Source of the DNA: a virus
Reading direction: 5' to 3' (one strand)
DNA: 38,604 bases
Virus record (IMG/VR): IMGVR_UViG_3300010391_001709
Location: 1-38,604 of that record
Shown: positions 2,492 through 31,490 of the stretch, piece by piece
How positions within the stretch are numbered: position 1 is the stretch's first letter
Layout: each line of letters begins with the position of its first letter
Made by a program: the position numbers and the translations under genes
The notes under the pieces: generated by a model
What the model was told of the DNA's origin: nothing
What the model saw: the letters and a program-made list of their open reading frames with translations, nothing else
Database searches by the model: none

Positions 2492-2776
2492 ATGAGACCC
2501 TTGGTGGTCTTGGTGGACGGAACGAGCCTTCCCGAGGTCCCGTTCGAGTCGTATCGGTTTACTTTCCCGGTGCAGGATGCGGAACTCACGCCAGAACATA
2601 TTGAGGAGTTCGGGTTGCGGGAGGGGCTGGTGAAGTTCGGGAAAGCCCTCGCGGAGCAGCGGGGAGCGGAAGGTGTGGAGATCTATTCGATCGGTGTCAC
2701 GTTTCTACTCAAGAAACAAGAGAAGATGGGATATAAACTGACGGAGAAGGAGAGGAAAGATGGCGAGTCTGCTTGA
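2492..2776 (+). CDS. Unknown protein, 94 aa
   Basis: ATG 2492 is preceded by AAAGGAGAAGGGGAG. The protein starts MRPLVVLVDGTSLPEVPFES with a beta-rich first half, has a helical second half, and ends in a charged tail (KLTEKERKDGESA). That tail overlaps the start of the AAA+ gene by 17 bases and is read partly from the AAA+ gene's RBS (GGAGAAGGAGAGG). No metal motif, membrane segment or known family is visible. Its position directly upstream suggests co-expression with the ATPase. Confidence 0.55.
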   Translation: MRPLVVLVDGTSLPEVPFESYRFTFPVQDAELTPEHIEEFGLREGLVKFGKALAEQRGAEGVEIYSIGVTFLLKKQEKMGYKLTEKERKDGESA

Positions 2777-4379
2777 CCAAGTCAAGGCCGCGCGGCGGGT
2801 CTCGACCCCCCTGCTGGCCATCCTGACCCCTGACCCTGGGGCCACGATTCAGACGCTCCAGGAGGGACTCGAAGGGGGCAAGACACCCATTCCCCTCTTT
2901 CGGTGGGATATCGTGAACGGGCTTCTCCCCGTCAACAAACCCGGGGCGGAAGTCCTCTCGTCGATCATCGCGGATCCAGGTGAGCTTCGGAATGGGACGC
3001 AAACCCCGTCCGACTGTCTCGCCCTGGCTACCCGCCTGCCAGGAGAGATCCAGGGGACGCAGCGGGGGTCGCTTCTCTTCGTCCTGAACGCCCAACGGTA
3101 TCTCGATCCTCAGGTGCAAGGGTCGGCGGCCGTTGCCCAAGCCGTCTGGAACCTTCGGGATCTCTACAAAGGCGATCGTCGGACGTGCATCCTCCTGGGG
3201 CCGCAGATGAAGCTGCCGCCGGAGTTGGCTCAGGATGTCATCGTCCTCGACGAAGCCTTGCCAGAGAACGGAGCCCTGACGGCGATCGTCCAGGAGCAGA
3301 TGCTCGCGGCGGATTTGCCCGCGCTCGATCCGGAGCGCCTGTCCCTGGCGGTGGATGCCATCCGAGGTCTTCCCGCCTTTACGGCGGAGCAGGTGACGGC
3401 CATGTCCATCGACCTCGATGCGAAAACCCTGGATCTGGAAGCGCTGTGGGCTCGGAAGCGGTCGGCCCTGGAGCAGAATCCTGGGCTGGTCGTGGCCCGG
3501 GGGACGGAGACCGTGGAGGACATCGGCGGACTGGAGACGATCCAGAAGTTCGGGCTGAAGATTCTGACCGGGCGAGCACGGCCCCGCATTCTCGTCGTCC
3601 TGGATGAAGTGGAGAAGATGCTCGGAGGGGCGGGCGCCGGCTCGGGTGGAGATACCTCGGGCGTCTCCCAGGACTTCCTGGGGGTCATCCTGCGGGAAAT
3701 GGAGGACAACGACTGGACGGGATTCCTCAGCGTGGGGCCGGCCGGGTCGGGCAAGACGCTTATCGCCAAGGCCCTGGGGAATTCTGCCGAGCCCCGGATC
3801 ATGACAACGACCATGGATCTTGGGGCCATGAAGGGGTCTCTGGTGGGGCAGTCGGAGGCCGCGATTCGTCAGAACATGAAGGCGATCAAGGCGGTGGCGG
3901 GTCGGGGAGGCGCCCTCTTTGTCGCGACCTGCAATCGGCTGGAGTCCCTCCCCCCGGAACTGCGCCGGCGGTTTCGTCTCGGGATCTGGTTCTTCGATCT
4001 GCCGGAGAAGGAGGAGCGGGGACCCATCTGGAAGATCCTCCTGAAGCGCTACGAACTCTCGGAGAAGGACCCACGTCCGGATGATACGAACTGGACGGGG
4101 GCGGATATCCGCAACGTCTGTGACATCGCCTGGCGCCTGAAGATTTCCCTCCAGCAGGCCGCCGCCTACATCGTTCCCGTGGCGAAGAGTAATCCGGAGG
4201 CGATTGATGCCCTGCGGCGCCTGGCCGCTGGGCGGTTCTTGTCGGCCTCGAAGCCGGGGGTCTATCAGATGGGGCAGACCCTGACGGAGTCTGCCCTCTC
4301 GTCGGGAGGGATTCAGCCCCTGAGTGGGGCGTACGAGAAGGAAGCTCGTCGGCGGAAGGTCCAGAAGGAGGAAGAATGA
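2760..4379 (+). CDS. AAA+ ATPase of the Ycf46/FtsH type with permuted Walker motifs, 539 aa
   Basis: The N-terminal ~250 residues resemble the non-catalytic arm of Ycf46-like ATPases. The AAA+ core follows: an entry motif (VEDIGGLETIQKFG, about residues 250-263), a Walker B strand with the acidic pair (ILVVLDEVEKML, about 277-288), a Gly/Ser loop, then the Walker A loop GPAGSGKT at residues 326-333, a VGQSEAAIRQN segment, the sensor-1 strand LFVATCNRLESLPPEL, and arginine-finger candidates RRRF. In known AAA+ modules Walker B follows Walker A; here it precedes it by about 45 residues and the normal Walker B position is empty. All motifs otherwise look intact, so the protein is probably active, perhaps as a remodelling ATPase. 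Start ATG 2760 has the RBS GGAGAAGGAGAGG. A DUF1257-like gene lies close downstream, a pairing also seen beside Ycf46-type ATPases. Confidence 0.8.
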   Translation: MASLLDQVKAARRVSTPLLAILTPDPGATIQTLQEGLEGGKTPIPLFRWDIVNGLLPVNKPGAEVLSSIIADPGELRNGTQTPSDCLALATRLPGEIQGTQRGSLLFVLNAQRYLDPQVQGSAAVAQAVWNLRDLYKGDRRTCILLGPQMKLPPELAQDVIVLDEALPENGALTAIVQEQMLAADLPALDPERLSLAVDAIRGLPAFTAEQVTAMSIDLDAKTLDLEALWARKRSALEQNPGLVVARGTETVEDIGGLETIQKFGLKILTGRARPRILVVLDEVEKMLGGAGAGSGGDTSGVSQDFLGVILREMEDNDWTGFLSVGPAGSGKTLIAKALGNSAEPRIMTTTMDLGAMKGSLVGQSEAAIRQNMKAIKAVAGRGGALFVATCNRLESLPPELRRRFRLGIWFFDLPEKEERGPIWKILLKRYELSEKDPRPDDTNWTGADIRNVCDIAWRLKISLQQAAAYIVPVAKSNPEAIDALRRLAAGRFLSASKPGVYQMGQTLTESALSSGGIQPLSGAYEKEARRRKVQKEEE

Positions 4380-5035: not shown

Positions 5036-5209
5036 ATGGAATACGAGGTGATGGTGACGTTCACGCTCCAGGCCGAGCCGTATTATCAGGGAGGCGCGGA
5101 CCAGGCCAAGTTTCGGATTGCGGAGATGCTGACGGATCTCCAGGACCGGCATCGGGAAGAAGAGGTCTCGGTGAAGATCGAGTCCGTCAGTTTTCACCAT
5201 GGAGGCTGA
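5036..5209 (+). CDS. Unknown small protein, 57 aa
   Basis: ATG 5036 follows AAGAAGGAGTGAAA, a good RBS that includes the previous stop. The protein (MEYEVMVTFTLQAEPYYQGG ... VKIESVSFHHGG) has alternating hydrophobic residues at both ends around a helical middle, suggesting a small beta-alpha-beta fold. No family is recognised. It lies directly ahead of the DUF1257-like gene, which starts two bases after this stop and takes its RBS (GGAGG) from the end of this frame. Confidence 0.55.
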   Translation: MEYEVMVTFTLQAEPYYQGGADQAKFRIAEMLTDLQDRHREEEVSVKIESVSFHHGG

Positions 5210-5210
5210 G

Positions 5211-5543
5211 ATGCCCTGCAACACGGTGGTGCGAAACTCACTCACGTTCGAAGTCGCTCGGCTCGATCTTCTCGAACGAGCTATCAAGCAGGAGATCAAG
5301 GATGTCCACGTCGTCCGGAAAGGGCAAGCCCTGGTCTTTTGGGCTCACGGATCTGCGGTCACTCTTACTCAAGGGCGGCTTGAGTCCAAGATGCCGGCCT
5401 CCCAGCTCGGGGCGCTCTCCGATCGCCTGAAGCAGGCCTACTCGCGGGAGGCGATCCGGGAGGCCGCCCGGAAGACGGGATTCAAACTCCAGCAGAAGGC
5501 CGGAGACCTGAATGCCTTCACCCTGACCAAGCAGGCCTTCTAA
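5211..5543 (+). CDS. DUF1257-like protein (Ycf35 family), 110 aa
   Basis: I choose ATG 5211 because GGAGG lies at 5201-5205; the ATG at 5199 overlaps the previous gene. The protein starts MPCNTVVRNSLTFEVAR, has a central strand-rich part (VRKGQALVFWAHGSAVTL) and a C-terminal part (LKQAYSREAIREAARKTGFK followed by a short strand) that fits the closing helix and strand of the DUF1257/Ycf35 family. Function of the family is unknown. In other genomes DUF1257 proteins often lie near Ycf46-like AAA ATPases, and here the AAA+ gene ends about 0.8 kb upstream, so a common job is likely. Confidence 0.55.
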   Translation: MPCNTVVRNSLTFEVARLDLLERAIKQEIKDVHVVRKGQALVFWAHGSAVTLTQGRLESKMPASQLGALSDRLKQAYSREAIREAARKTGFKLQQKAGDLNAFTLTKQAF

Positions 5544-5668: not shown

Positions 5669-5844
5669 CCGAGCAAGAGGTCGTCCACAAGCTGACAGGG
5701 ATGCTGGAAGAGATCAAGCGAAAGGCGGGACCCTCGATTGGGCTCGTCCGGAAGTTCTGGCCCCGAGCCGACACCCTCCGGCGGGAGATCGAACGACTCT
5801 ACGAGCGGGCGAAATGGTGTCAGGAGGAGGTGGCGAGATTATGA
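5665..5844 (+). CDS. Unknown small helical protein, 59 aa
   Basis: It starts at ATG 5665 in an ATGA overlap with the zinc-ribbon gene. The sequence (MTEQEVVHKLTGMLEEIKRK ... LRREIERLYERAKWCQEEVARL) is almost entirely charged and leucine-rich, predicting two helices or a short coiled coil. No catalytic or metal motif is visible. The stop overlaps the next ATG at 5841. Function unknown. Confidence 0.55.
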   Translation: MTEQEVVHKLTGMLEEIKRKAGPSIGLVRKFWPRADTLRREIERLYERAKWCQEEVARL

Positions 5845-6200
5845 GTCGGAGCTTTCTCAAGACGGGATCTATGCGCGTCGATGGACAGATCATCAAGCCG
5901 CAGCGCTTCTTTACCTACCAGAGCGTCTCGGAGAAAGGGAAGGAGTATCGGACGACGCAGTGGGGGGATGGCTTCGTCTCCTGCAACTGCACCGGGTGGG
6001 CGATTCACAAGAAGTGCTGGCACACGGCAGACGTGGCCAGCCTGATGGGGGCGAATAGTCTCTCGTCAGCCGATCGGGTCGCGAACCTCTTTACGACTCC
6101 GACCCCTGCGCTTCGGGTTGTCCCAGCCTCCCAGCCGGCGTCCGTCATCGTGGAGCATCGGGGCCAACGCTTTCGCCGGCTCATCGGGGAGGAAGAGTAG
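5841..6200 (+). CDS. SWIM-type zinc-finger protein, 119 aa
   Basis: ATG 5841 overlaps the preceding stop and has GGAGGAGG about 13 bases upstream. The middle of the protein contains CNCTGWAIHKKCWHTADV, which fits the SWIM zinc-finger pattern CxC-xn-CxH. SWIM domains bind nucleic acid or protein partners in bacterial SWI/SNF ATPases and in MULE-type transposases. Here the domain stands nearly alone with a short N-terminal strand region and a disordered C-terminus. It is directly followed by the 329-aa gene at 6201 with no gap. Role unknown. Confidence 0.6.
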   Translation: MSRSFLKTGSMRVDGQIIKPQRFFTYQSVSEKGKEYRTTQWGDGFVSCNCTGWAIHKKCWHTADVASLMGANSLSSADRVANLFTTPTPALRVVPASQPASVIVEHRGQRFRRLIGEEE

Positions 6201-7201: not shown

Positions 7202-7408
7202 ATGAGCCAAGACACTCTGCGATTGCAAATCCTGGACGATGGGACGATTAAGTCTACGGCGGACGGCATCTCGGCCTCCAATCATCGGGCGGCGGAGGAG
7301 TTCCTGGCCCTCCTGACTCAGTTCCTGGGAGGCGCGGTGACTCGGGAGCGTCGGAAAGATGCCCACCAGCATCAGCATGTGCAGGGGCAAGCCCACGAGC
7401 ATGCCTGA
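7202..7408 (+). CDS. Small protein with His-rich tail, 68 aa
   Basis: ATG 7202 follows AAAAGGAGAGGAC, a strong RBS that overlaps the previous stop. The protein (MSQDTLRLQILDDGTIKSTA ...) has a beta-rich start and a helix, and ends in a histidine-rich tail (DAHQHQHVQGQAHEHA) that could bind a metal ion. The DDGTIK strand and the following helix are reminiscent of DUF2997, which often travels with DUF1257, but the match is weak. The last 8 bases overlap the next gene. Confidence 0.55.
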   Translation: MSQDTLRLQILDDGTIKSTADGISASNHRAAEEFLALLTQFLGGAVTRERRKDAHQHQHVQGQAHEHA

Positions 7409-8142: not shown

Positions 8143-9045
8143 ATGTTAACGTCGTCCGCCAAAACGATCTTCGAGAACGCGGTCTGTGTGGACCTGCGGC
8201 TGTCGAAGCTTCGAACCCGTCGCACGATTGCCACCTCCTCCGTTGAGGTCGAGGCCGATCCGGATTTGATTCACGTGTCGAAGGACATCCTGGATGCGGA
8301 GGAACTGAAGGCGGTCGGGCACCTGCACGGAGAGATCCGACGCTATCTCTGGTCGCGGCACCTGCCCTCGTCCCTGTTCCGGAACGGAATCTATCTCATT
8401 CCTCTGGCCCTGGTCGATGAGGTGGACAAGAAGCTCCAGACCTACCGGACCGAACTGACCAACCGGATCAAGAAGTTTCTGGCTGTCTACCCGGAGCGGA
8501 TCGAGGAGGCCAAGAAGCGCCTGGGGAAACTCTTCGATGAGGAAGAGTATCCGTCCGGGTCCCGCCTCTCCGAGGCCTTCGAGATGAAGGTCTCCTATAT
8601 CACCTTTCAGACTCCCACCTCGTTGAAGTCCGTCTCCTCTGCCCTCTTCCAGCGGGAGAGCAAGAAGCTCGAAGAGAGCATGGCCGAGTCGGCCCGGGAG
8701 ATCCAGCAGGCCCTGCGGGAGGCCATGGGCTCTCTCGTTGAGCACATGGTCGAGCGGCTGACGGGAGGGGATGGGGGAAAGCCCAAGAAGTTCAAGGATA
8801 CCTCTATTCAGAAGGTCCAGGAGTTCCTGGACACCTTCCAGGCGCGGAACATCACGGGGGATGCCCAGCTCGGGGCCCTCGTCGAGAAGGCCAAGAAGCT
8901 CCTGGTCGGGATCTCCCCGGATGACCTTCGGGAGGATGACAAGGTGCGCAAGATCGTGGCCCAAGGGTTCGAGAAACTCAAGGGCGCTCTTGACGGGATG
9001 CTTCAGGAGAAGGGCACTCGGAAGATCTCCAGGGAGGAGGACTAG
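8143..9045 (+). CDS. Unknown helical protein, possibly DUF3150-like, 300 aa
   Basis: ATG 8143 follows GAGAGAGAGGAAC. The protein is acidic/basic mixed and mostly helical. Its N-terminal half (residues 1-130) contains KDILDAEELKAVGHLHGEI and RNGIYLIPLALVDEVDKKLQ, a pattern that reminds me of phage DUF3150 proteins; the C-terminal half has long charged helices (EEAKKRLGKLFDEEEY, KLEESMAESAREIQQALREA). No catalytic motif is visible. It appears to be transcribed on its own, from the promoter-like site upstream to the hairpin just after its stop, so it may be an abundant early protein. Family call is weak. Confidence 0.6.
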   Translation: MLTSSAKTIFENAVCVDLRLSKLRTRRTIATSSVEVEADPDLIHVSKDILDAEELKAVGHLHGEIRRYLWSRHLPSSLFRNGIYLIPLALVDEVDKKLQTYRTELTNRIKKFLAVYPERIEEAKKRLGKLFDEEEYPSGSRLSEAFEMKVSYITFQTPTSLKSVSSALFQRESKKLEESMAESAREIQQALREAMGSLVEHMVERLTGGDGGKPKKFKDTSIQKVQEFLDTFQARNITGDAQLGALVEKAKKLLVGISPDDLREDDKVRKIVAQGFEKLKGALDGMLQEKGTRKISREED

Positions 9046-10741: not shown

Positions 10742-11233
10742 ATGCGAAAGATTCCGCTGATGGGAAGGCGGGGCGTAGTTCGTGCCTATGCGCTTGTAGA
10801 TGATTCTGATTATGAATTGTTGTCTCAGTACTCGTGGAGGTTGTTAGAAGTAAAGTACAAAGGAAAAGTTTGGAGATATGCTGTCCATACGAAGGGACTG
10901 CGTCCCCATTTTAGTATGCACAGAAAGGTTCTTGGCTTGTCAGGAAAAGGACGTAGGCTTGAGGCTGACCATCTTAACGGTAATGGTCTAGACAATCGTC
11001 GCTCTAATATACGGGCTGTAACTCACGCGCAAAATCTTCAGAACAAATCGGCTAACCGTCGAAGCACATCAAAGTTTCGCGGGGTTCATTGGAATCGTAA
11101 AGACCGAAGATGGCGCGCAAAAGTACGTCTTAATGGGAAAATTGTTTTTGAGCGTAATTTTTCTAGCGAGCAAGAAGCAGCGGAAGCTGCAGCCGAACAG
11201 CGTAAACTCCTGCTTCCTTATAGTGTCTCTTGA
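10742..11233 (+). CDS. HNH homing endonuclease with AP2 DNA-binding domain, 163 aa
   Basis: The N-terminal half has the HNH_3 layout: ALVDDSDYELLSQYSW, a central MHR, then EADHLNGNGLDNRRSNIR, where the His of ADH and the Asn residues form the nuclease site. Residues about 105-150 (SKFRGVHWNRKDRRWRAKV, NGKIVFERNF) are an AP2 DNA-binding domain. This architecture is typical of free-standing phage homing endonucleases. The codons are visibly richer in A/T than those of neighbours, consistent with recent invasion. It sits between the terminator and queC; ATG 10742 follows TGAGGGGTT. Confidence 0.9.
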   Translation: MRKIPLMGRRGVVRAYALVDDSDYELLSQYSWRLLEVKYKGKVWRYAVHTKGLRPHFSMHRKVLGLSGKGRRLEADHLNGNGLDNRRSNIRAVTHAQNLQNKSANRRSTSKFRGVHWNRKDRRWRAKVRLNGKIVFERNFSSEQEAAEAAAEQRKLLLPYSVS

Positions 11234-11311: not shown

Positions 11312-12007
11312 ATGAGTCAAGTCATTTCACTGTTATCGGGAGGACTAGACTCGACGGTCCTCCTTCACTATCTGCGAGCGGAAGGGCATGAGGTGAAAGC
11401 CCTCTCCGTTCACTATGGGCAGCGTCATGTGAAGGAACTCAGTGCCGCCAAACGGATTGCTGGCAGACTCTTTGGGGTTGAATGGCGGGAGGCGAACCTC
11501 TCGGACCTTCAGCCCTTTCTGGAAGGATCCTCGCAGACCTCTCCCGAAATTCCAGTGCCCCATGGCCATTATACAGAAGAGAGCATGAAGCAGACGATCG
11601 TCCCGAATCGCAATATGTTGATGCTCTCTATCGCCATTGCCTGGGCTATCTCCTCGAAGTTCGAGTCCGTCGCCTATGCCGCGCATGCGGGGGATCATGC
11701 CATCTATCCGGATTGTCGTGAGCCCTTCGTGGCGGCGATGACGGAGGCGGCCCGTCTCTGCGACTGGCATCCGGTGATCATCTTGCGTCCCTTTATCACG
11801 ATGACCAAGGCCGAGATCGTTCGGCTTGGGGCGGGTCTCGGGGTGCCCTTCGGAGAGACGTGGTCGTGTTATGAAGGGGGGGAAGTACATTGCGGGCAAT
11901 GTGGAACTTGTCAGGAAAGAGTTTGGGCGTTTCAAGCGGCCGGGATTCCTGATCCAACTGCTTATGTTGGAGGAGAGATTCCAAAGTTGTTCCGGGGGCC
12001 TGAGTAA
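11312..12007 (+). CDS. queC: 7-cyano-7-deazaguanine (preQ0) synthase QueC, 231 aa
   Basis: QueC converts 7-carboxy-7-deazaguanine to preQ0 with ATP and ammonia. The N-terminal [13 protein letters not shown] (residues 8-20) is the PP-loop that activates the carboxylate. YGQRHVKEL, the segment [12 protein letters not shown] and [13 protein letters not shown] are family hallmarks. The C-terminal [18 protein letters not shown] carries the four Cys zinc ligands. Length (231) is normal and all key residues are present, so the enzyme should be active. Start ATG 11312 has the RBS GGGGGAGAGAG. It begins the deazaguanine gene set but is flanked on both sides by homing endonucleases. Confidence 0.95.
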
Positions 12008-12817
12008 ATGTCGTGGCCGAAGGGTAAGAGGCGCTCTCCTGAAACTATTAGGAAAATGTCTGTTTCTTTGACAGGCCGCAAGTTGTCTGCCGAGCATAGG
12101 GCACGAATTGGAGAGGCTCAGCGTATAATATGTTCGGACCCAGAGGAGCGTAAACGCAGATCTGAACGTTCTATTCTTGTGGGAAGAGATCCAGAGGAGC
12201 GCCAACGACGATCCGTCAGAGCGAAGGCGCGGGGTTATGGAAAATGGATGCTTGGGCGTCCTTCTCATCCTAAGCGCATAGCTTGGTTGAAAGCTCAGAA
12301 GGGAAAATCTTTTGAAGAGCGTTTTGGTTCAAGAGCGGCTGAGATCAAACGCAAGATTTCAGAATCCAACAAACGAGCAAAACGGGGCAAGCGTCCTTCT
12401 TCTGGATTTCTGACGTCATCAGTTCGACACAGAAAAGGAAAGACCTACGCCCAGATCTATGGTATTGCTCGCGCTGCCGAAGAGAGTAAGAAGAGATCGT
12501 TAGGACGTAGACGTCGATGGCAGGCTCTTCGTCGTCATCAGTATCATCGACCTCGTGGTCAAGGTTGTGGCCCACGTTATCGTCAATGGCGCCATCGTGT
12601 TTTTGAACGAGATAATTATATCTGTCAGAGATGCGGAAGACAGGGAGGAAAGCTTCAGGCAAATCACATAAAGCCTTGGGCTCTGTTTCCTAGGCTTCGC
12701 TACGATGTGAAGAATGGGGAAACTCTTTGTGCTAAGCCTTGCCACAAGGAAGCGACCAAGGAGCAGCGCAGACTGTATCGAAACATGTTTCGTGAGAACG
12801 GTTGGAAATGCGCATGA
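12008..12817 (+). CDS. HNH homing endonuclease with NUMOD3-like repeats, 269 aa
   Basis: The N-terminal part has NUMOD3-type repeats (KRRSPETIRKMSVSLTGRKL and similar units), which help homing nucleases bind DNA. The C-terminal 70 residues form an HNH domain: WRHRVFERDNYICQRCGRQ, then QANHIKPWALFP and ETLCAKPCHKEA, with zinc-binding Cys pairs and the catalytic His. The codons are A/T-richer than in queC and queD. It starts directly after the queC stop and ends 22 bases before queD, so it was inserted between them without damaging either gene. Confidence 0.85.
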   Translation: MSWPKGKRRSPETIRKMSVSLTGRKLSAEHRARIGEAQRIICSDPEERKRRSERSILVGRDPEERQRRSVRAKARGYGKWMLGRPSHPKRIAWLKAQKGKSFEERFGSRAAEIKRKISESNKRAKRGKRPSSGFLTSSVRHRKGKTYAQIYGIARAAEESKKRSLGRRRRWQALRRHQYHRPRGQGCGPRYRQWRHRVFERDNYICQRCGRQGGKLQANHIKPWALFPRLRYDVKNGETLCAKPCHKEATKEQRRLYRNMFRENGWKCA

Positions 12818-12839: not shown

Positions 12840-13226
12840 ATGTTTCGCCTTTCCAAGATGTTCCGCTTCGAGGCGGCCCATTTTCTTCCTCATCACGATG
12901 GGAAATGTCGTCGGATGCATGGGCACTCCTGGCAGGCGACCATTGTGTGTGAGGGGTATCATCTGAAGCATGAAGGGCCGAAGCAGGGCATGCTGCTGGA
13001 CTACGGGGAGATTTCTGACGCAATGGAGCCCATCGTGGATGGGGCTCTGGATCATCATCTGCTGAATGACACCGTGAATGCCAATCCCACGTCCGAAGTG
13101 GTGGCGGTCTGGATCTATTTCCGCCTTCGGGATAAGCTTCCTGGCCTGAAGGGAGTCATCATTGAAGAAACCTGTACCTCTCGATGTGAGTACTTTCCTA
13201 GTCCAGACGATCTCATTGGGCGATGA
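12840..13226 (+). CDS. queD: 6-carboxytetrahydropterin synthase QueD, 128 aa
   Basis: QueD turns dihydroneopterin triphosphate into 6-carboxy-tetrahydropterin, the second step of preQ0 synthesis. FRFEAAHFLP supplies the first zinc His; GKCRRMHGHSW supplies the catalytic Cys and the other two zinc His residues. DYGEISDAMEPIVDGALDHH and the C-terminal EETCTSRCEY with the substrate-binding Glu complete the family pattern. Length is typical. ATG 12840 follows AGGGGAGAGTG. The stop overlaps the queE start at 13223 (ATGA). Confidence 0.95.
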   Translation: MFRLSKMFRFEAAHFLPHHDGKCRRMHGHSWQATIVCEGYHLKHEGPKQGMLLDYGEISDAMEPIVDGALDHHLLNDTVNANPTSEVVAVWIYFRLRDKLPGLKGVIIEETCTSRCEYFPSPDDLIGR

Positions 13227-13921
13227 TCCCCCGCGCTTCCGAAGTGTTGACGCCCTTTCAATATGGGGCAAAGGCTCCAGAGGGTACCTCCTGGCCCTTG
13301 AACAAAGATCGCTTCACCGAGTATTGGGTCAATCGCGTGTATCCGACCGTGCAGGGAGAGGGCCGTCAAGCCGGCACGCCCATGACCATTATTCGGTTGC
13401 AGGGCTGTCCGGTCGGGTGTTCGTTTTGCGATACGCCTGAGACCTGGAGTGTGGATGACATGACCCTGTCCTGGTGGAAGGCCGAAGCCCTGGCGGCCCA
13501 GGTGGGGTTGTCCTGGGCCCTGGTGACGGGAGGAGAGCCTACGTGGCATGACCTCGGCGCGCTGACAGCCGCCCTTCGGGTGCGGGGGATTCGTCGGGCC
13601 CTGGAGACCTCCGGCGTCTATCCCATCACGGGGTTGTGGGACTGGGTCACGATCAGCCCTAAGCCACGGGGGCTTCTCCCCCTGGATCGACAGAATCTTC
13701 GCCAGGCGGACGAAGTGAAGTGGATCGTGGGACGGGCAGAGGATGTCCAGGAAATCGAGCATTTTGTTCGAGAGATGGGGCTCCCTGGCGGGGGACCAAG
13801 AATTTCCCTTCAGCCTGTGTCCTGTTCTGAGAAGGCCACGGCGCTTTGTCTGGGAGCGTTGATGCGACATCCGGACTGGTATTTGTCCCTTCAAACGCAC
13901 AAGATGATTGGCATAGCCTAA
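13223..13921 (+). CDS. queE: 7-carboxy-7-deazaguanine synthase QueE (radical SAM), 232 aa
   Basis: QueE rearranges carboxy-tetrahydropterin to 7-carboxy-7-deazaguanine using SAM and an iron-sulfur cluster. The cluster motif [10 protein letters not shown] (CxxxCxxC) follows [18 protein letters not shown], and [10 protein letters not shown] is the SAM-binding GGE segment. The C-terminus has SPKPRG and a lysine-containing strand (DEVKWIVG) as in QueE. About 35 extra residues precede the first conserved segment, so translation from a later codon cannot be excluded, although ATG 13223 fits the ATGA coupling. Its last base overlaps the next ATG (TAATG). Confidence 0.93.
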
Positions 13922-14823
13922 TGCGTCCTGTTCGACGGGTGACCTGGGAGCAGTTTCGTCTTCTCGTGCATACATTGGGAGCGGTCCTGTCTAGGGTGCG
14001 GTTTGAGGGGGTCTATGGGATTCCCACCGGGGGGGCTGTGGTCGCCTTAATCCTGAGTCAGAAGCTTCATTTGCCCATTCTTGATATCCCAACGCCGGGA
14101 TGTCTCATTGTGGATGATATCTGTGATTCCGGGCGGACGCTTCAAGAATGGTACTCAGCAGGATATATGACCGCCGTTCTTCACGTGCGCCCCCAGCGTC
14201 GAGACCCCCCGACATATTTTGTCGAGGAGACTGAGGACTGGATCGCATATCCATACGAGCGAGCCTCCGTGGGGGAGGACATTGTGACGCGCATGATCGA
14301 ATTGATTGGAGAGGATCCCGCTCGTCCGGGTCTTCGAGAGACGCCTGCTCGGGTCGTCCGGTCCTGGGGAGAGCTCTTTGCCGGCTATCACGCGGACCCC
14401 ACGCTGACTTCGTTCGAGGATCCCTGTGACCAGATGGTCGTGGTCCGGGGCATCGAGTTTACTTCCACCTGTGAGCATCATCTGCTTCCCTTCGTAGGGA
14501 TGGCGAATGTCGCCTACGTGCCGAATGGGCGGGTTCTGGGTCTCTCCAAGATTCCCCGACTGGTCGAAGTCTATGCCCGCCGGTTGCAACTTCAGGAGCG
14601 TTTGACGGGACAAGTGGCCGATGCGATTGAGCAAGCATGTCAGCCGAAGGGAGTCGCCGTGGTTCTCTCGGCTCGACATCTCTGTGTCTCAGCCCGAGGG
14701 GTCGGGAAACAACAGAGTGATTTTGTCACGTCCGCCATGCGGGGGTGTTTCCTGACGGAGGGGGCCGCCCGGGCGGAGTTCTTCTCTCTGATTGACAAGG
14801 GAGGACCGAATGGGCGAGGATGA
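13921..14823 (+). CDS. folE: Phosphoribosyltransferase-GTP cyclohydrolase I fusion, 300 aa
   Basis: Residues 1-110 are a type I phosphoribosyltransferase domain: [19 protein letters not shown] forms the first conserved loop and [17 protein letters not shown] is the PRPP-binding loop with its two Asp. Residues about 115-300 are GTP cyclohydrolase [20 protein letters not shown], then [11 protein letters not shown] with the zinc Cys and His, [28 protein letters not shown], and HLCVSARGV with the third zinc ligand. Both halves look intact. FolE makes dihydroneopterin triphosphate from GTP, the first step to preQ0. The fused transferase could feed purine nucleotide to FolE or act on a deazapurine; that is inference. 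I know of no standard fusion of these two families. It overlaps queE by 1 base and queF by 14. Confidence 0.9.
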
Positions 14824-17632: not shown

Positions 17633-18582
17633 TGCTGCTACAGCATAACATCATCTCGATGCCTCAGAATGCTTCGTTCGTGATTGAGGTGTTGCTGCCG
17701 TCCATCTGTGCCTTCCTGGGAGAGGCGTTCGCCAAGGACGAGTACTTCTTACGGTTGGTGCTTCAAGGATATTCTTCGCAGGAGGTCGTCCGAGTGCAGC
17801 AAGCGTTGGAGTGGGCCGAAGTTCCACACGAGATTATTCGTCAACCCTGGGACGAAGATCATCTGCGTGTGTACTGGAAGACTCGTCTTCGGGGGTTCTC
17901 CTCTCAGTTTCCGTACTTTTTGATGACGGACGATGACTTTGAGTTCAAGTCTGGTTCGTTTCGCTCTTATCGACTGGCTGTGGAGTATCTGGAGCATCAT
18001 CCGGCCTGTGCCCTGGTGATGTGTGCGAGCTGGATGGGGAGTCGGGGCCAGAAGGGAATGCCAGGCCCCGTGCCCTATGCGGGGACGATCTGGACGAATC
18101 GAGGGCTCGTTTTTCGGAACTTGGAGAAAGATGGCCCCTTGGGAGCGTTCGTGCATGGAGTGTGTTGGCGTCCGGCCGTCCAGTGGGCTCCCCGGTTCGG
18201 GGGAGACTGGCTCTTGGCCTGGAGCCCGAGTCAGTTTGGGTTCCATCCAGCCAAACTCTTTGGGTGCCCCACTCGGCATTATCAAGCGCGTCCTGAGAAG
18301 ATCGAGAACTTTCCCAGTCGAATTCGTCCCTACTTCGAGTGGAAGCGTCAGCAAGGCCCCTTTCTAGCGCTCAAGACCGAGGATTGGCGTCAGACGCCCG
18401 CCGCCCGATTCTTGTCTCGGGTCTTTGCCCTTCCCTCGAACTTCGACGTCACGCAGCGGGATAGCATCCTGAAACATATTCGGATGGCTCCGAGTTTCTA
18501 CAAGACGGTGTATCGCCCGGAAGCCCTAAAGCGATTCGGAGAGGATGCGCTTCAGGAATGGGCGCACAAACATTTCCGGTAA
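17632..18582 (+). CDS. Glycosyltransferase-like protein (GT-A type), 316 aa
   Basis: It starts at ATG 17632 in a TAATG overlap. The N-terminal 85 residues have a Rossmann-like alternation (LRLVLQGYSSQEVVRVQQAL, VPHEIIRQPW). This is followed by FPYFLMTDDDFEFKSG, where the DDD triplet fits the metal- and sugar-nucleotide-binding DxD motif of GT-A glycosyltransferases. Later come ACALVMCASWMG and a conserved-looking FGGDWLLAWSPSQFGF. The C-terminus is helical. Donor and acceptor cannot be read from sequence. It may glycosylate the modified base, DNA or a virion protein; location just before dpdA favours the first two. Confidence 0.65.
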   Translation: MLLQHNIISMPQNASFVIEVLLPSICAFLGEAFAKDEYFLRLVLQGYSSQEVVRVQQALEWAEVPHEIIRQPWDEDHLRVYWKTRLRGFSSQFPYFLMTDDDFEFKSGSFRSYRLAVEYLEHHPACALVMCASWMGSRGQKGMPGPVPYAGTIWTNRGLVFRNLEKDGPLGAFVHGVCWRPAVQWAPRFGGDWLLAWSPSQFGFHPAKLFGCPTRHYQARPEKIENFPSRIRPYFEWKRQQGPFLALKTEDWRQTPAARFLSRVFALPSNFDVTQRDSILKHIRMAPSFYKTVYRPEALKRFGEDALQEWAHKHFR

Positions 18583-18584
18583 AG

Positions 18585-19538
18585 ATGTTCTTGGCGGGCG
18601 TCTCGGCCGCGGTGCCTCCTCATGCGTGGAACCGATATGCGGAGTTTCTGACGAATCGCTCATATCAAGTTCGGGAACTTCTCTCCTATGTGGAGATTGC
18701 CCCAGACGCCATGTGGAGGCGCGTAATGGAGAAGACTGCGACGGTGCGGTGTGAACTGTTTCTGGACTCCGGGGCCTTCTCGGCCTGGACCCGGGGTCTG
18801 GCCATCGACCTGAAGGAGTATGCGCAGTTCGTCCTGGACCGGCGGGATGCCTTCTCCATCGTGGCCAATCTGGATGTCATTCCGGGTTCTTGGGGGCATA
18901 TTCCGACCCAGCAGGAGATCAATGAATCGGCGGCTCGGGGGTGGGAGAACTACTGGGCCCTCAAGAAGCTCCTGGCTCCTTCGGGGCTGGTCCCCATGCA
19001 TATCTACCATCAAGGAGAAGATATCAAGTGGCTCAAGAAGCTCATGGACGAGGCAGACTACTTTGGGGTCTCCCCAGGGAATGACCGTTCGACGGACGAA
19101 AAGCTTCGATGGTTGGATGAAGTCTTTACTCTCTTGACGGATGATAAGGGATGGCCCCTCCGAAAAACGCACGGGTTCGGGGTGACGGCGATGGACCTGC
19201 TCTTTCGGTATCCCTGGTATTCGTGTGATAGTACGGCGTGGGTCCTGACGGGGCGCTACGGCATGATCTATGTCCCCCTGAACGGAAAGGCGCACAAGGT
19301 CTATTTTTCGAACCAGTCTCCCAAACAACAGATGGAGGGGCAGCACTATCTGACCCATTCAAAGCCGGAACAGGCGGCCATTCGCACCTACATTGAGGAG
19401 AAGGGATTTACGGTGGAAGGGCTCGCCGATGATTATGTGCAGCGGGATCTGGCGAACATTCAGTTTTTCCTGGAACTCGAAAAGTTGTGGGAACCTCGGC
19501 CCTTCAAGCGGTCTGAGATCCAACCGTCTTTCTTCTAG
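18585..19538 (+). CDS. dpdA: DpdA-type DNA-guanine transglycosylase, 317 aa
   Basis: DpdA proteins are relatives of tRNA-guanine transglycosylase that swap guanine in DNA for a 7-deazaguanine. Visible hallmarks are FLDSGAFSAWTRG, VANLDVIPGSW, PMHIYHQGEDIKWL, YFGVSPGNDRSTDEKLRWL, THGFGVTAMDLLFRYPWYS and CDSTAWVL, which track the TIM-barrel strands with their Asp residues. Length is normal for phage DpdA. I prefer ATG 18585 (MFLAGVSAAV) to ATG 18558: the N-terminus then matches that of the small remnant at 20089 and avoids overlap with the previous gene. With QueC, D, E, F and FolE upstream, the expected substrate is preQ0 or preQ1. Confidence 0.88.
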   Translation: MFLAGVSAAVPPHAWNRYAEFLTNRSYQVRELLSYVEIAPDAMWRRVMEKTATVRCELFLDSGAFSAWTRGLAIDLKEYAQFVLDRRDAFSIVANLDVIPGSWGHIPTQQEINESAARGWENYWALKKLLAPSGLVPMHIYHQGEDIKWLKKLMDEADYFGVSPGNDRSTDEKLRWLDEVFTLLTDDKGWPLRKTHGFGVTAMDLLFRYPWYSCDSTAWVLTGRYGMIYVPLNGKAHKVYFSNQSPKQQMEGQHYLTHSKPEQAAIRTYIEEKGFTVEGLADDYVQRDLANIQFFLELEKLWEPRPFKRSEIQPSFF

Positions 19539-20229: not shown

Positions 20230-20700
20230 ATGCCGAAGGGAAAACCCGTTCTGACGTATGATGAACAGGAGGAGCTCTGCTATCGGGTTCTCTGTGCCGG
20301 GTTCCCAACGGTGCGAGCGGAGTCGATGGGGACGCTGTTCCGAGATGTCTATGGCGTGACGCTGACCGAAACGTGTTTTCGACGGGCGCAGGATCGTCTC
20401 AAGCGCACGCCGGACGCCCGTCAGGTTCGGGTGAAGTATCAATATCTCATCGCTCTCTTCGTGTGCTATCCGGGTCTTCCTCGGGCTCAAGCCCGGGTGA
20501 AAGCCAAGCTGGCCTTTGGGGAGGATACCCGCGATGATATGATCGAGGAGATGCGGGGAAAGGCCAGCAGAGAGGAAATGCCTCGGAGCCGAGCAGAACA
20601 GATTATCCGGGAGTGCGAGGCGCGTGTCGTAGCGCTAGCGGAGTTCGACTTTACGGGAGAGGGGCATGGGGAAGAAAGTTTCGAACGACCACAAAGATAG
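20230..20700 (+). CDS. Unknown helical protein, 156 aa
   Basis: ATG 20230 follows AAGAAGGAGAAGAAAG. The protein is helical and basic in its first half (EQEELCYRVLCAGFPTVRAE, YGVTLTETCFRRAQDRLKR), a pattern that might hold a helix-turn-helix, and acidic near the end. No family is recognised. The last 35 bases overlap the sliding-clamp gene, so the two are likely co-expressed. Confidence 0.55.
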   Translation: MPKGKPVLTYDEQEELCYRVLCAGFPTVRAESMGTLFRDVYGVTLTETCFRRAQDRLKRTPDARQVRVKYQYLIALFVCYPGLPRAQARVKAKLAFGEDTRDDMIEEMRGKASREEMPRSRAEQIIRECEARVVALAEFDFTGEGHGEESFERPQR

Positions 20701-21793
20701 TCTCACCGTTTCTGTGAAGGATCTTCTTCCCATTCTGAGTCTGGCCAAGGCCTTCACGGCGACGCGGGACATTGTTCCCGTGCTCAAGTGTCTTTACTTT
20801 CAGGGGGACACCGTGCGCGCCTTTTCCGGGGAAGCGGGCGCGGTCTGGTATACCCCCTGGAAAATGCCCGGAGAGTTCGCGGTTCCGGCAGACACCTTAG
20901 TGCGGTTGGTGGATTCTCTCCACGCACAAGGGCATGAGGAGGTGACCCTGACGCGAACGGAGGCTTCCCTGGTTCTTCGGGCGAGTGGATTTCGAGCCGT
21001 TCTGCCGACGCTTCCTGAGACCGAACGCTCGGCCTTTGTCTTTCGGGATCCCCCAGAGAAGGGCAAGGTCTCCGTCTCGAAAGAGTTCTGGCAGGACGCG
21101 GATCGGACTGTGGGGACAATCTGTCAAGATGAGACGAAACCAATGCTTCGAGGGATTTTCTGGGGGCCATCGGGAAAGTTCCTAATCTCGACGGACGCCT
21201 TTCGGATCACGGTGGCGCACATGAGCGCGGGGGCGGTCGCCGCTCCTCGTCCCACAGGAGTGCTGATTCCTGATCATTTGCTCTCCCGCTGCGGCGCTCG
21301 ACGACGAGAGATTATTTCTGTTGCTCTTGAAGGGGAGGGGCTGTTGTGGTTTTTCTTCGAGTCAGGGGCGGTCTATGGGAGTCTGCTCCAGGCGGAGTTT
21401 CCTTCGGGCCGCTCGATCGAGTTCATCAAGAAGGTGCGGGAAGCCGAGCGGGCTCACGGGAGCTGGATTACTCTTCCGAGTGGGCCTCCCGTGGAGCAGG
21501 CGATGGATCGGCTCCTCTATCTCGCCGAGGGCCCGGTGTTCAAGGTCTCAGGGGAAATTACCAAGGATGCGTTGATCCTTCGTGTCGGGGGACAGGAAGG
21601 CCCGTCGGCAGAGGAGAGCTTCCCCGCCCAGGTGAAGGGGGAACAGGGAACATTCTCGGTCAATGGGAAATTTTTTCGGGACGCTCTCGGGATTTCGCAT
21701 CGGTTCTGGGTGCAGCCGGGAGAGACCCTAGATCCGCTCTATTTCGTGGCCGAAAATCACTTGACGGAGCAGATTGTCTTACGGCTTCGGTGA
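20666..21793 (+). CDS. DNA polymerase sliding clamp, DnaN-like, 375 aa
   Basis: The length (375) equals that of bacterial beta clamps, and three repeated domains can be traced. Domain 1 has VSVKDLLPILSLAKAFTATR and the P-V-L-K-C-L strand; domain 2 contains KPMLRGIFWGPSGKFLISTD followed by AFRITVAHM, which matches the beta-clamp pattern P-x-L-x-G-(x)n-L-x-x-x-A-T-D-x-x-R-L; domain 3 ends with DPLYFVAENHLTEQIVLRLR. It would encircle DNA and tether the phage polymerase encoded just downstream. ATG 20666 lies inside the previous gene behind GGGAGAGGGGC. The stop overlaps the UDG/exonuclease start at 21793. Confidence 0.75.
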   Translation: MGKKVSNDHKDSLTVSVKDLLPILSLAKAFTATRDIVPVLKCLYFQGDTVRAFSGEAGAVWYTPWKMPGEFAVPADTLVRLVDSLHAQGHEEVTLTRTEASLVLRASGFRAVLPTLPETERSAFVFRDPPEKGKVSVSKEFWQDADRTVGTICQDETKPMLRGIFWGPSGKFLISTDAFRITVAHMSAGAVAAPRPTGVLIPDHLLSRCGARRREIISVALEGEGLLWFFFESGAVYGSLLQAEFPSGRSIEFIKKVREAERAHGSWITLPSGPPVEQAMDRLLYLAEGPVFKVSGEITKDALILRVGGQEGPSAEESFPAQVKGEQGTFSVNGKFFRDALGISHRFWVQPGETLDPLYFVAENHLTEQIVLRLR

Positions 21794-22686
21794 TGGAGAG
21801 CTTCTTCCCCGATCTCGAACGTCCCATTTTCCGGAAGCCTCGGATGGGAGGGCGAGGACTGAAGCTGGCTTCTTCGGGTGTGTTGTCTGGGTCTCCCTGC
21901 ATGGGATGCCCCAGGGAGAAAGCAGTGAAGGTCTTGCCGGTACTTCCCCCTAAGGCGAAACTCGTCGCCGTGGGCATGGCCCCAGGAGGAGAAGAGGAGC
22001 AAAAGGGAAAGCCCTTTGTAGGACGCTCGGGGATTCTGCTTCGATCCACCCTTCGCGCTGTTGGACTCGACCCGGAAGAAGAAGTTGGATATTTAAATCT
22101 GGGTCGCTGTCGTCCGGAGGATGATGACTTCGAGTCGGCAGGATGGAAAGAAGCGGAAAAACGGTGCAGTCGATATTTAGCGGATGATTTGGCCCACGTG
22201 TCTGTTCCTCTTCTACTTCTGGGGACTCGTCCGGTGGTGCGGCTTCTAGGAGACGCGAAAGAGCGGGTGGGCAAGTCGCGGGGGCTCTGGGTCCAGACGG
22301 CGGATGGGCGTCCGGCCTTTGTGGCGCGTCATCCGGCCCAGATTCTGCGGGCGGACAGTGATCAGATCCGGGCGCGGTTAGAGAAAGAGTTTCGGGAAGA
22401 TCTCCAGCGCATGGCCAATAAACTCCTGGGACGTGAGCCTCCGCAAGGATATGAAGTCTCAGTGTTTACTTCTCCCTTCGAGGCTCAGGGGTTTCTGACC
22501 AAGCTCACAGCGCATCGGGCGCCCTGGGCGTTCGATATTGAATCGTATGATGGAAAAGAGTTTCCCTCCCGACGCCCCGTGGCCACGGATCCCTGTCATC
22601 CGGACTTTCGCTTGCGGGGGATCGCTATTGCCTGGGGATCCGAGAAAGGGGTCTGGATCGAGTGCAAGGGGCTTGAGGATCGTTGA
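21793..22686 (+). CDS. Uracil-DNA glycosylase (family 4-like) fused to start of a 3'-5' exonuclease domain, 297 aa
   Basis: Residues about 34-205 match family 4 uracil-DNA glycosylases: CMGC (iron-sulfur Cys pair), VAVGMAPGGEEEQKGKPFVG with RSGILL, NLGRCRP, a further Cys (KRCSRY), and FVARHPAQILR as motif B. The usual motif A is GEAPG; here it reads GMAPG, so the catalytic Glu is missing and the domain may bind rather than cut uracil. From about residue 245, WAFDIESYDGKEF and RLRGIAIAW are the first exonuclease motif (DxE) of family A polymerases. The frame then meets TGA at 22684-22686 in the middle of that domain; the same phase continues (see next entry). A start at ATG 21793 overlaps the clamp stop. 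Confidence 0.8.
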   Translation: MESFFPDLERPIFRKPRMGGRGLKLASSGVLSGSPCMGCPREKAVKVLPVLPPKAKLVAVGMAPGGEEEQKGKPFVGRSGILLRSTLRAVGLDPEEEVGYLNLGRCRPEDDDFESAGWKEAEKRCSRYLADDLAHVSVPLLLLGTRPVVRLLGDAKERVGKSRGLWVQTADGRPAFVARHPAQILRADSDQIRARLEKEFREDLQRMANKLLGREPPQGYEVSVFTSPFEAQGFLTKLTAHRAPWAFDIESYDGKEFPSRRPVATDPCHPDFRLRGIAIAWGSEKGVWIECKGLEDR

Positions 22687-23055
22687 GACGAAGTCCGAGA
22701 GCTTTTTTCTCCTCCTTTTGCCTCTTCTGCGGAGAAGTGGGGGTTCAATGGGGGATTCGACGAGGACGGGCTGGTCTATCCGGGGTGGGTGCGGGAAGTG
22801 CAGAACCGGAGCGGGGATGGGATGCTGGGGCTGATTGCCTTGGGGGATGCGCGGCATGAGTCCCTTCGGCTAGAGAAGGCGGTCGTGGACATCTTGAAAC
22901 TGCCCCAATACTGGGATGGATTGTCTAAAGATCGGATGCGTGATATTTCCCTCGCCCAAGTAGCTCGAAATGCGGTGGGGGACGCCTGCCGAACATTTTT
23001 GCTCTGTCAGATTCTGCATGAGCGCATTCGCAAGGGGGAGTACTTGGAGCGATGA
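22687..23055 (+). pseudogene. In-frame continuation of the exonuclease domain after TGA 22684-22686
   Basis: The phase of the preceding gene stays open from 22687 to TGA 23053-23055 and encodes the missing part of the exonuclease domain: EKWGFNGGFDEDGLVY is exonuclease motif II (NxxFD), GMLGLIALGDARHESLRLEK matches the usual DTM-HALDE-LKLE segment, and LAQVARNAVGDACRTFLLCQ fits motif III (A-Y/V-x-A-x-D). The final stop forms an ATGA overlap with the next ATG at 23052, as at real gene junctions here. So the full gene would be 21793-23055 (420 codons) interrupted by one TGA. Readthrough, a recent nonsense mutation (CGA to TGA at a CpG) or an assembly error are all possible. No good internal start exists; GTG 22789 lacks motif II. 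Confidence 0.65.
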
Positions 23056-23489
23056 TTCTCTCGGGGCGGGACATTGCCTGGTACATTGAGACAGGAAGGC
23101 TGGGGGTCTCTCCCATCCAGCCCGAGCAGTTTCAGCAGAACGGAATAGACTTGATCCTGGATGAAGTGGAGGGACATCCGGAAGTCTTTTCTTCGCTGAC
23201 GTTCTATCTCGGAGGAACGCGGGAGCGGCTCGTTCTTCCGGATGATTTGATGGCGTTCGTAGAGCTGCGGAGTACCTGGGCACGCAGGGGCCTTCTAATT
23301 CCTCCAACCATTGTGGACGCGGGATTTGTGGGCAATCTGACGCTCGAAGTTTTTGCCATGAATGGGAATCGCGTTCCCTATGGGGAGCGGTTTGCCCATC
23401 TTATTTTTGCAAAGTTGACCGGTCCGGCGGTTCCCTATCGAGGGAAGTATTATGGTCAGCAGGGGGTAACTCCCCCACGAGACGATTGA
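23052..23489 (+). CDS. dcd: dCTP deaminase (Dcd/DUT family), 145 aa
   Basis: The protein starts MILSGRDIAWYIETGRLGVS and has QQNGIDLILDEV (substrate-binding strand), FVELRSTWARRGLLIPPTIV with the RS-x-x-A-R-x-G signature, DAGFVGNLTLEVF, and the C-terminal YRGKYYGQQGVTPPRDD lid that covers the nucleotide. This is the dCTP deaminase pattern. It is somewhat short but complete. It would supply dUTP for dTMP synthesis together with the ThyX encoded at 28613. A separate dUTPase is not visible, so a bifunctional enzyme is possible. It is coupled to both neighbours by overlaps. Confidence 0.85.
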   Translation: MILSGRDIAWYIETGRLGVSPIQPEQFQQNGIDLILDEVEGHPEVFSSLTFYLGGTRERLVLPDDLMAFVELRSTWARRGLLIPPTIVDAGFVGNLTLEVFAMNGNRVPYGERFAHLIFAKLTGPAVPYRGKYYGQQGVTPPRDD

Positions 23490-25105
23490 TGGATCTCTGG
23501 TCATATTATAGTCAAATCTTCGTTCCCGCCAACGTGGCGGTGTCCGCCTTGCGGCGCGCGGGGTTGCCCATTCATCTGAACCGCCTGCGGGAGACGCGGG
23601 CGACGTGGGAGCGGGAAATCGGAGAACTTGAACGGATGATCGAGGGGGAAGCTGCTACGCGGGGGGTCGTCCTGAAGTTTTCCAAGGCGCACGCACTGGG
23701 CCCAAAAGTCCTGCACGATTTTCTGTACTCCGCTCGGGGACTTGGGTTAGAGATTAAGAAGTGGACGGCTCCCTCTGCTACGTATCCCCAGGGACAACCC
23801 TCGACGGATGACGAAGCTCTTCTCTCTTATGCGTCAATCAAGAATCCGAAACCGGACGATCATGCCGTCGTGACGGCACTCCTGAAGATTCGGTCTCTCA
23901 ACAAAGGGCTCTCTACGTATTTGTTCAACTTCGAGCGCACCTTGCGGGGGGATGGCGCCTGTCACCCCAAGTTCAACTGGGCCCTTCGCACCTCTCGCCT
24001 CTCGGCCGAGGATCCACCGGTGCATCAAATCCCGGAACGGTCCGACAAAGTTGTCGCCGAAGGGGTGAAGGCATGTATCATTCCTCGCGTCACCCCCGCC
24101 CCAGGGCGAGAAGAGTGGGACCCCCGGAAGTATGGGTCCTGTTTTCGATGGGATATTGTCGGGGCAGAGGCGTGTATTCGGGGAGCGATGTTGCCCGCTC
24201 TCTTTTGTTCTCGTCCTGATCCGGTCCTGTGGGAGTATCTTCGGAAAGGAAAAGACGTGCACTCCAAAACGGCCTCACTGATCTATGGAGTGCCCGAGGG
24301 GACCTATAAGAAGGGATCGTATGAGCGGGATCAGGTGGGAAAGATCGTCTTCTTCGCCAAAATCTTTGGGGCGATGTGGACCACGCTCCAGCACCAAGTT
24401 TGGACAGAGGCCCGCATCCGACTTCCGGACCCGGAGGCTCGCCGCATCTCTGATGCGTTTGAGGCTGGATATTCGGGTCTCACGGAGCTCTATGAGTGGG
24501 ACAAAGAACACCTGGGACAGATTGGCTATGCCGTAGATGGCTATGGGCGGCGTCGGTGGATTGGACTCCCAGAGGGTGTGCGATATGTTGGACGCTTGAA
24601 CGGGAAGACGCGGTGGGACGTCCAGGGACGAACGGAAGATGAGCGCAAGGCCCGATGGACAGACTTGAATCATCGGTTTCATGTGGCTGCGAATACGCCC
24701 ACCCAGGGGATGAATGCAACGGATACTCTATGGATGCTTGCCCTTTTGTATCATGGGGAGTATGTGGAGCTCCGGGTACCCCCGATGTGGGAAGCGCGAG
24801 GTGTTTCGTTTCCAGAGGCAAAAGACTGGCGGTTTCATGGGGGGCCGGGTCCAGGAGGAAAGCCCTTTCAAGCCTGGCACTTTAACACCGTGCATGACAG
24901 TGGGTGGGGAGATTGTGCCCCAGGGTATCTGGAAGCGGTGGCCAAAACGATCTATCGGCGCTGTACGGCGCTTCCGTTCGACTGGCGGCTGAAGGCGGAT
25001 GTTCCGTATCGAGTCGAGCTGACGGTTGGCCCGGACATGGGCACGTTGCAATCGTACAACAAAGTGGCCAAGACCTTTGGACTAGAACCTTTGCCTGAAG
25101 TCTGA
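23489..25105 (+). CDS. Family A DNA polymerase, polymerase domain only, 538 aa
   Basis: ATG 23489 overlaps the dcd stop (TGATG). The N-terminal 150 residues form the thumb-like helices (LRRAGLPIHLNRLRETRATW). Motif A is RWDIVGAEACIRGAM, keeping the metal Asp and the Glu five residues later of DYSQIELR. Motif B is RDQVGKIVFFAKIFGAMWTT (canonical R-x3-K-x7-YG, with F for the Tyr). Motif C is FNTVHDSGWGDC, where the usual HDE reads HDS. A GYAVDGYGRRRWIGLP hairpin and NTPTQGMNATD also fit. The 3'-5' exonuclease is in a separate gene (21793-23055) with dcd between, so the polymerase works as a split enzyme, probably with the clamp at 20666. Confidence 0.9.
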   Translation: MDLWSYYSQIFVPANVAVSALRRAGLPIHLNRLRETRATWEREIGELERMIEGEAATRGVVLKFSKAHALGPKVLHDFLYSARGLGLEIKKWTAPSATYPQGQPSTDDEALLSYASIKNPKPDDHAVVTALLKIRSLNKGLSTYLFNFERTLRGDGACHPKFNWALRTSRLSAEDPPVHQIPERSDKVVAEGVKACIIPRVTPAPGREEWDPRKYGSCFRWDIVGAEACIRGAMLPALFCSRPDPVLWEYLRKGKDVHSKTASLIYGVPEGTYKKGSYERDQVGKIVFFAKIFGAMWTTLQHQVWTEARIRLPDPEARRISDAFEAGYSGLTELYEWDKEHLGQIGYAVDGYGRRRWIGLPEGVRYVGRLNGKTRWDVQGRTEDERKARWTDLNHRFHVAANTPTQGMNATDTLWMLALLYHGEYVELRVPPMWEARGVSFPEAKDWRFHGGPGPGGKPFQAWHFNTVHDSGWGDCAPGYLEAVAKTIYRRCTALPFDWRLKADVPYRVELTVGPDMGTLQSYNKVAKTFGLEPLPEV

Positions 25106-25111
25106 TAAACA

Positions 25112-25127
25112 CTCGATAAAAGAGAAG
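25112..25127 (+). promoter_or_regulatory. CTCGATAAAAGA motif in intergenic gap
   Basis: In the 35-base gap after the polymerase gene, CTCGATAAAAGA (25112-25123) repeats the same 12 bases found at 752-763. GAAAGGAGAAGAGC follows as the RBS for ATG 25141. No -35 box is seen. It may be a promoter recognised by a phage-specific factor, or simply a favoured leader sequence. Confidence 0.3.
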
Positions 25128-25140
25128 AAAGGAGAAGAGC

Positions 25141-25710: not shown

Positions 25711-25731
25711 CCCAGAGAAAGGAGATTCAGC

Positions 25732-26754: not shown

Positions 26755-26757
26755 CCG

Positions 26758-29398: not shown

Positions 29399-29420
29399 TT
29401 AAAACGAAAGGAGAACCATT

Positions 29421-29585: not shown

Positions 29586-29588
29586 ATC

Positions 29589-31488: not shown

Positions 31489-31490
31489 AA

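Follow-up and report, generated by a model that had tools for sequence, protein, structure and literature searches.

Motif order in a viral AAA+ protein

The window analysed here, the whole of a 38,604-base IMG/VR virus record, carries on its plus strand an open reading frame for a protein of 539 amino acids, with a purine-rich, ribosome-binding-like stretch upstream of the ATG. We divide the encoded protein into the following features, each given with its coordinates, strand and basis.

2760-4379, plus: Ycf46-like AAA+ protein (539 aa) with a non-cyclic permutation in its catalytic AAA module (ORF; homologues; Pfam AAA at 43.5 bits in the native order, covering profile positions 2-55 only)
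2760-3479, plus: degenerate N-terminal AAA (D1-like) domain, residues 1-240, no Walker A (AF2 secondary structure; full-length alignment on p97/Cdc48 D1-D2)
3525-3584, plus: GG entry motif and alpha-0, residues 256-275, G257 invariant (AF2 secondary structure, family alignment)
3585-3713, plus: relocated Walker B unit, residues 276-318, with beta-3 (277-281), D282 and E283, the pore-loop-2 region and alpha-3 (302-316) (reordering test, AF2, alignment)
3714-3908, plus: Walker A unit, residues 319-383, with beta-1, the P-loop (326-333), alpha-1, beta-2, the pore-loop-1 region and alpha-2 (364-383) (reordering test, AF2, alignment)
3909-4259, plus: residues 384-500, with the sensor 1 strand (385-391, N392), the arginine-finger region (R403, R404), beta-5 and a helical lid (AF2, alignment)

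Read along the protein sequence, the motifs are GG (256-257), Walker B (ILVVLDEVEK, 277-286, which includes I277, D282, E283 and K286), Walker A (GPAGSGKT, from G326 to K332-T333), VGQSE (362-366), ATCN (389-392) and RRRF (402-405). The Walker B strand and helix precede the block made up of Walker A, alpha-1, beta-2 and alpha-2, and this block leads directly into the sensor-1 strand. The initial annotation had read the same order from the sequence, and its numbering of D282, E283 and K332 and its DNA coordinates (3585-3960) are correct; only its placement of LVVLDEVEK at residues 277-285 was one residue off (278-286). It had also described the stretch from VGQSE to sensor 1, where Walker B would normally lie, as lacking acids, and there is indeed no D or E in it.

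The same order throughout a family

Family members were gathered by tblastn and pattern scans, which returned the isolate phage Tunturi_3 and as many as 80 IMG/VR loci in a single scan, together with 46 loci in bacterial genomes, mostly of Acidobacteriota, Nitrospirota and Armatimonadota. The resulting family comprises about 156 distinct proteins. The Tunturi_3 homologue, gp103, is 38% identical over 93% of the length (tblastn), and the complete chromosome of Nitrospira moscoviensis holds two copies of the permuted gene that are 93% identical (L126, L132). Genes for a ribonucleotide-reductase-like protein, a primase and a helicase lie near the first of these copies, which probably belongs to a prophage-like element. 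In two other members (L019:3998-5533 and L023:3995-5563) a CxxCxGxG-like zinc-finger insertion is present in the N-terminal half, ahead of a conserved AEQATAM motif.

Walker B comes before Walker A, and Walker A before sensor 1, in every member long enough to be read; the canonical order of Walker A, Walker B and sensor 1 is absent. Sequences missed by the motif regex were read by eye and, fragments excepted, also have Walker B first. Two apparent standard-order members (L089 and L091) proved to be false regex hits to GGCGAYKT upstream, the true P-loop lying after Walker B. A DE motif at the standard place was found in 0 of the 147 distinct sequences scanned for it.

The window is a metagenomic IMG/VR record, and an unusual order in such a record could come from a chance motif or a misjoined contig, with the real Walker B elsewhere. 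The initial annotation had named homologues as the check on an assembly rearrangement and had called for a search for the same order, which is now found in all readable relatives. Independent contigs (more than 100), the isolate phage and the complete N. moscoviensis chromosome are all permuted, and the standard place is free of a DE motif in all relatives tested. We consider this explanation ruled out by the homologues, with a probability close to nil.

Conservation of the nucleotide site

Four residues are invariant in the family alignment (156/156): E283, K332, N392 and R404. Position 282 is D in 151 members and E in the other five; G326, G329 and S/T333 are, like K332, present in 156/156, and R403 in 134/156. 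Walker A, Walker B, sensor 1 and the arginine-finger region are all found across the 156 aligned members, in agreement with the earlier claim that every motif is retained. The exception within these motifs is the glycine before the P-loop lysine, which is Gly in 67/156 and A, S or C in 89/156 (e.g. GPPGAAKS); the window protein, whose P-loop is encoded at 3738-3755, keeps it. This substitution could alter nucleotide handling. In addition, the aromatic residue of pore loop 1 is missing in nearly all permuted members.

Could the rearranged domain be catalytically dead, or a nucleotide-binding scaffold in which motif remnants are kept for folding? The loss of the last P-loop glycine in more than half of the members, the P-loop of Tunturi_3 (GVPGVSKS) and the degenerate state of the N-terminal AAA domain are all consistent with such a site. 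However, K332, E283, N392 and R404, above all the catalytic Glu, would hardly have been kept in 156 divergent sequences if the site were dead. MCM proteins likewise carry A or S before the P-loop lysine, and this is usual in active MCM ATPases. We regard a dead site as unlikely and propose that the domain is an active one.

An exchange of two inner blocks

In the native order the window protein matches Pfam AAA over less than half of the profile (positions 2-55 of 131). When segments 276-319 and 320-382 are exchanged in silico, the match rises from 43.5 to 65.7 bits and extends over profile positions 2-126. Scored against a profile built from 32 standard-order relatives, the best domain of 123/123 members gains from the same reordering, the mean going from 79.1 to 211.5 bits. 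Control swaps with shifted boundaries gave means of 45-131 bits, the top control being a shift that partly restores the order.

The GG motif and alpha-0 stay N-terminal, and sensor 1, the arginine finger and the lid stay C-terminal; the two inner blocks alone are exchanged. A simple circular permutation does not describe this arrangement, in which no old termini are joined and no new termini lie inside the domain. That a single strand-helix unit was relocated, as first suggested from the sequence, is upheld by the reordering, which restores one contiguous AAA+ domain with its flanks in place, and the order of secondary structure in the AF2 model and the order in relatives agree with it. Since all sequence motifs of the classical AAA clade are present and the canonical order is not, we consider the protein a rearranged derivative of the AAA+ superfamily by descent.

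Predicted fold and covariation

An AF2 model of the window protein, built with 88 family sequences, has a pLDDT of 93.1 and a pTM of 0.87. Its strands (E) and helices (H) in the catalytic module, E277-281, H302-316, E320-325, H332-342, E348-352, H364-383, E385-391, H399-404 and E409-411, follow the order beta-3, alpha-3, beta-1, alpha-1, beta-2, alpha-2, beta-4, alpha-4, beta-5 that is expected of the permuted chain. The predicted active domain aligns on p97 D2 (3cf0_A) with a Z of 16.1 over 204 residues at 2.7 Å, and the whole protein on p97/Cdc48 D1-D2 with a Z of up to 18.8 over 408 residues at 4.9 Å. The full-length alignment indicates a D1-like domain at the N-terminus, and no P-loop occurs in residues 1-255 of the sequence. 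By both the AF2 layout and the D1-D2 alignment the protein consists of two AAA domains, the first degenerate and the second the active one. Foldseek matches of the full model have rmsd values of about 9-17 Å, which are expected from a sequential aligner and an interdomain hinge, and were left out of the evidence. Alpha-2 is 20 residues long in the permuted model versus 16 in the model of a standard-order relative, the latter being the weaker model (pLDDT 77, 20 sequences); the greater length fits the need of this helix to reach one strand further.

Covariation was calculated from permuted sequences only (n=156, Neff 109), which are thin data. When beta-3 (276-282) is slid along the domain, its best pairing among 209 offsets is with 382-388 and 384-390 (offsets 106 and 108), which is beta-4, the sensor-1 strand. 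Of the moved unit's 11 strongest couplings, six are with alpha-2, for which the expected share is 0.10 (P about 3e-4, weakening to P 0.05 at a lower cut-off of z 4). L281 and C391, the residues just before D282 of Walker B and N392 of sensor 1, are coupled, as are I277 with A380 and R276 with R382, pairs that join the start of beta-3 to the end of alpha-2, two points that follow directly on each other in a canonical chain. Several couplings of the moved unit point to the lid and look like noise, and block-level coupling counts are too weak to decide, so that the argument is carried by the offset scan and the top couplings. By these sequence correlations the strand of Walker B would lie next to that of sensor 1 and close to alpha-2, the arrangement of a normal AAA+ domain. 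They bear indirectly on the condition that the initial annotation had set for refuting its reading, a model with residues 282-283 far from the nucleotide, and speak against it. Judged from the model and the covariation, the moved piece apparently folds back to its usual position, and the AAA fold would be retained.

A different arrangement is one in which the Walker B unit is domain-swapped and completes the site of the neighbouring subunit, giving an obligate composite site in trans. The moved unit lies directly after the inter-domain linker, at a new attachment point, as such a swap might have it, and contacts in cis and in trans look alike in covariation. On the other hand, the monomer AF2 model places the unit confidently (block means of 97-98 around 271-280 and 93-98 around 301-340), and the links around the 319-383 block are short, with alpha-3 ending at 316 and beta-1 starting at 320, and alpha-2 ending at 383 and beta-4 starting at 385. 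We judge a swap of this kind to be very improbable. Our preferred reading, to which we assign a probability of roughly 85%, is that an active AAA+ core underwent a single non-cyclic block swap with its three-dimensional site kept, and that the protein is Ycf46-like and probably an active ATPase.

A standard-order sister family and a shared operon

The nearest standard-order relatives found form a phage and plasmid family that was reached through a Candidatus Manganitrophus plasmid protein, WDT73634.1 (loci L145-L170); the proposed kinship with Ycf46 and classical AAA proteins holds. The window protein matches PHROG 8638 at 4.4e-37 but in four stretches, whereas L145, of the standard-order family, matches it in one. 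Two quick trees without bootstrap, one from reordered sequences and one from an alignment stripped of the Walker B unit in every row, gave the same result: the permuted proteins form one clade (SH-aLRT 100), which is sister to the standard-order family (SH-aLRT 98).

Three downstream neighbours of the AAA gene in the window recur in the family.

5199-5543, plus: DUF1257/Ycf35-like small protein (104/130 permuted loci; profile match to the standard-order neighbour, prob 99.0, E 2.9e-18)
7202-7408, plus: DUF2997-like small protein (90/130 permuted loci; profile match prob 99.1, E 7e-19)
8143-9045, plus: DUF3150 protein (Pfam PF11348 at 5.5e-8; 99/130 permuted loci; profile match prob 99.7)

The neighbour scan reached 3.8 kb, and the window's own DUF3150 copy lies mostly beyond that range. 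Single-sequence family searches on the neighbours were mostly negative and profile-profile comparison was needed, in which mismatched pairs of neighbour profiles scored a prob of <1. Because DUF1257-like, DUF2997-like and DUF3150 proteins are encoded downstream of the AAA gene in both families, we take the operon to be the same one, with its AAA gene rearranged. In Synechocystis, Ycf35/DUF1257 and DUF2997 are clustered beside ferredoxin 7 (PMC4284462), which makes the operon products no more than candidate partners.

We consider it likely that this is a natural non-cyclic permutation of an AAA+ core that became fixed a single time in a phage lineage and is now present in more than 150 divergent sequences, and in which the links joining the pore loops, Walker A, Walker B and sensor 1 are rewired and the ATP site is kept. 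We infer that it arose by a tandem duplication to A-B-A-B-C, from which the first A and the last B were then lost to leave B-A-C. Among the family sequences found, neither the A-B-A-B-C intermediate nor a leftover of such a duplication was seen, whether an extra P-loop ahead of Walker B or an extra DE motif ahead of sensor 1.

Proposed mechanism

We propose that a single ancestor passed from the canonical arrangement [b1-a1-b2-a2][b3-a3][b4-a4-b5-lid], in which b and a stand for beta and alpha, to [b3-a3][b1-a1-b2-a2][b4-a4-b5-lid]. Only two links would change: alpha-3 would run to beta-1, skipping beta-4, and alpha-2 to beta-4, skipping beta-3. As judged from AAA+ topology, the crossing directions are unchanged and every crossover can remain right-handed, so that a 5-1-4-3-2 sheet can still form. 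Walker B (D282/E283) is predicted to lie beside sensor 1 (N392) and to face the P-loop (K332), so that the ATP site would most likely be an ordinary one despite the unusual chain order, with the arginine finger supplied by a neighbouring subunit. The helix behind pore loop 2, alpha-3, would lead straight to the Walker A strand, and the helix behind pore loop 1, alpha-2, straight to sensor 1. The end of alpha-3 carries an M-x-D where classical AAA proteins have their inter-subunit signalling motif, and this now runs into Walker A. We infer that the protein hydrolyses ATP, forms a ring and remodels a partner, possibly one or more of the DUF1257, DUF2997 and DUF3150 products.

Comparison with known systems

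To our knowledge, Walker A precedes Walker B in all other AAA+ proteins. The standard-order Ycf46-like family of phages and plasmids (PHROG 8638), the sister clade of the permuted family, has the same pair of AAA domains, a degenerate one at the N-terminus and an active one after it, and the same downstream DUF1257, DUF2997 and DUF3150 genes, but its Walker A precedes its Walker B. Ycf46 itself occurs in phages, cyanobacteria and plastids, and the top BFVD structural matches of our model are phage proteins named ycf46 (A0A6J5NS46, TM 0.65; Pseudomonas phage SM1); these were compared by overall structure match and differ in sequence (16-18% identity), with an rmsd of 7.7-14 Å in sequential alignment. 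With p97/Cdc48 D2, of the classical AAA clade, the active domain shares its predicted fold and its motif set, whereas the segment order of D2 is canonical; pore loop 1 of D2 is aromatic.

The nearest known precedent for reordered P-loop motifs is that of the circularly permuted GTPases RsgA/YjeQ and RbgA/YlqF, P-loop NTPases in which the order of the nucleotide-site motifs is changed and the site is kept. Those proteins are true circular permutations of a TRAFAC GTPase, whereas the present case is the transposition of an internal block within an AAA+ (ASCE) domain. Natural non-cyclic permutations are known as a class and are rarely reported, with one possible case (PMC2096629). A search of open-licence full texts for permuted AAA+ proteins, for Walker B before Walker A or for DUF3150 with phage returned nothing on point; priority is not established by this, and as far as we found there is no earlier description of an AAA+ motor with a changed chain order.

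Few molecular motors have been studied as much as AAA+ proteins, whose detection and classification make use of motif order. A family with two exchanged inner blocks would show that the fold can do without the canonical order and, if our reading is true, that AAA+ allostery does not depend on canonical chain connectivity. It would provide a natural test of whether the direct links from alpha-2 and pore loop 1 to Walker B, and from alpha-3 to sensor 1, couple substrate grip to hydrolysis, and the standard-order sister in the same operon makes an unusually clean before-and-after pair. The partial Pfam coverage and the fragmented PHROG 8638 match also show how annotation fails on such a protein.

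Other genes of the window

Upstream of the AAA gene lies a methyltransferase-like gene (1580-2476, PHROG 15480), and downstream of it a gene (5814-6200) whose small product weakly matches a SWIM zinc finger. A 7-deazaguanine cluster (11312-12007, 13223-13921, 13846-14823 and 18558-19538) encodes QueC, a QueE-like radical SAM protein, GTP cyclohydrolase and a queuine tRNA-ribosyltransferase-like protein, which suggests that the phage DNA is modified. Two HNH endonuclease genes flank queC (10742-11233 and 12008-12817), one of them with a weak AP2 match, and are possible homing endonucleases. A replication and repair block at 20666-33914 encodes a processivity factor, a family A DNA polymerase, a gp32-like SSB, a UvsX-like recombinase, thymidylate synthase, and SbcD-like and SbcC-like proteins.
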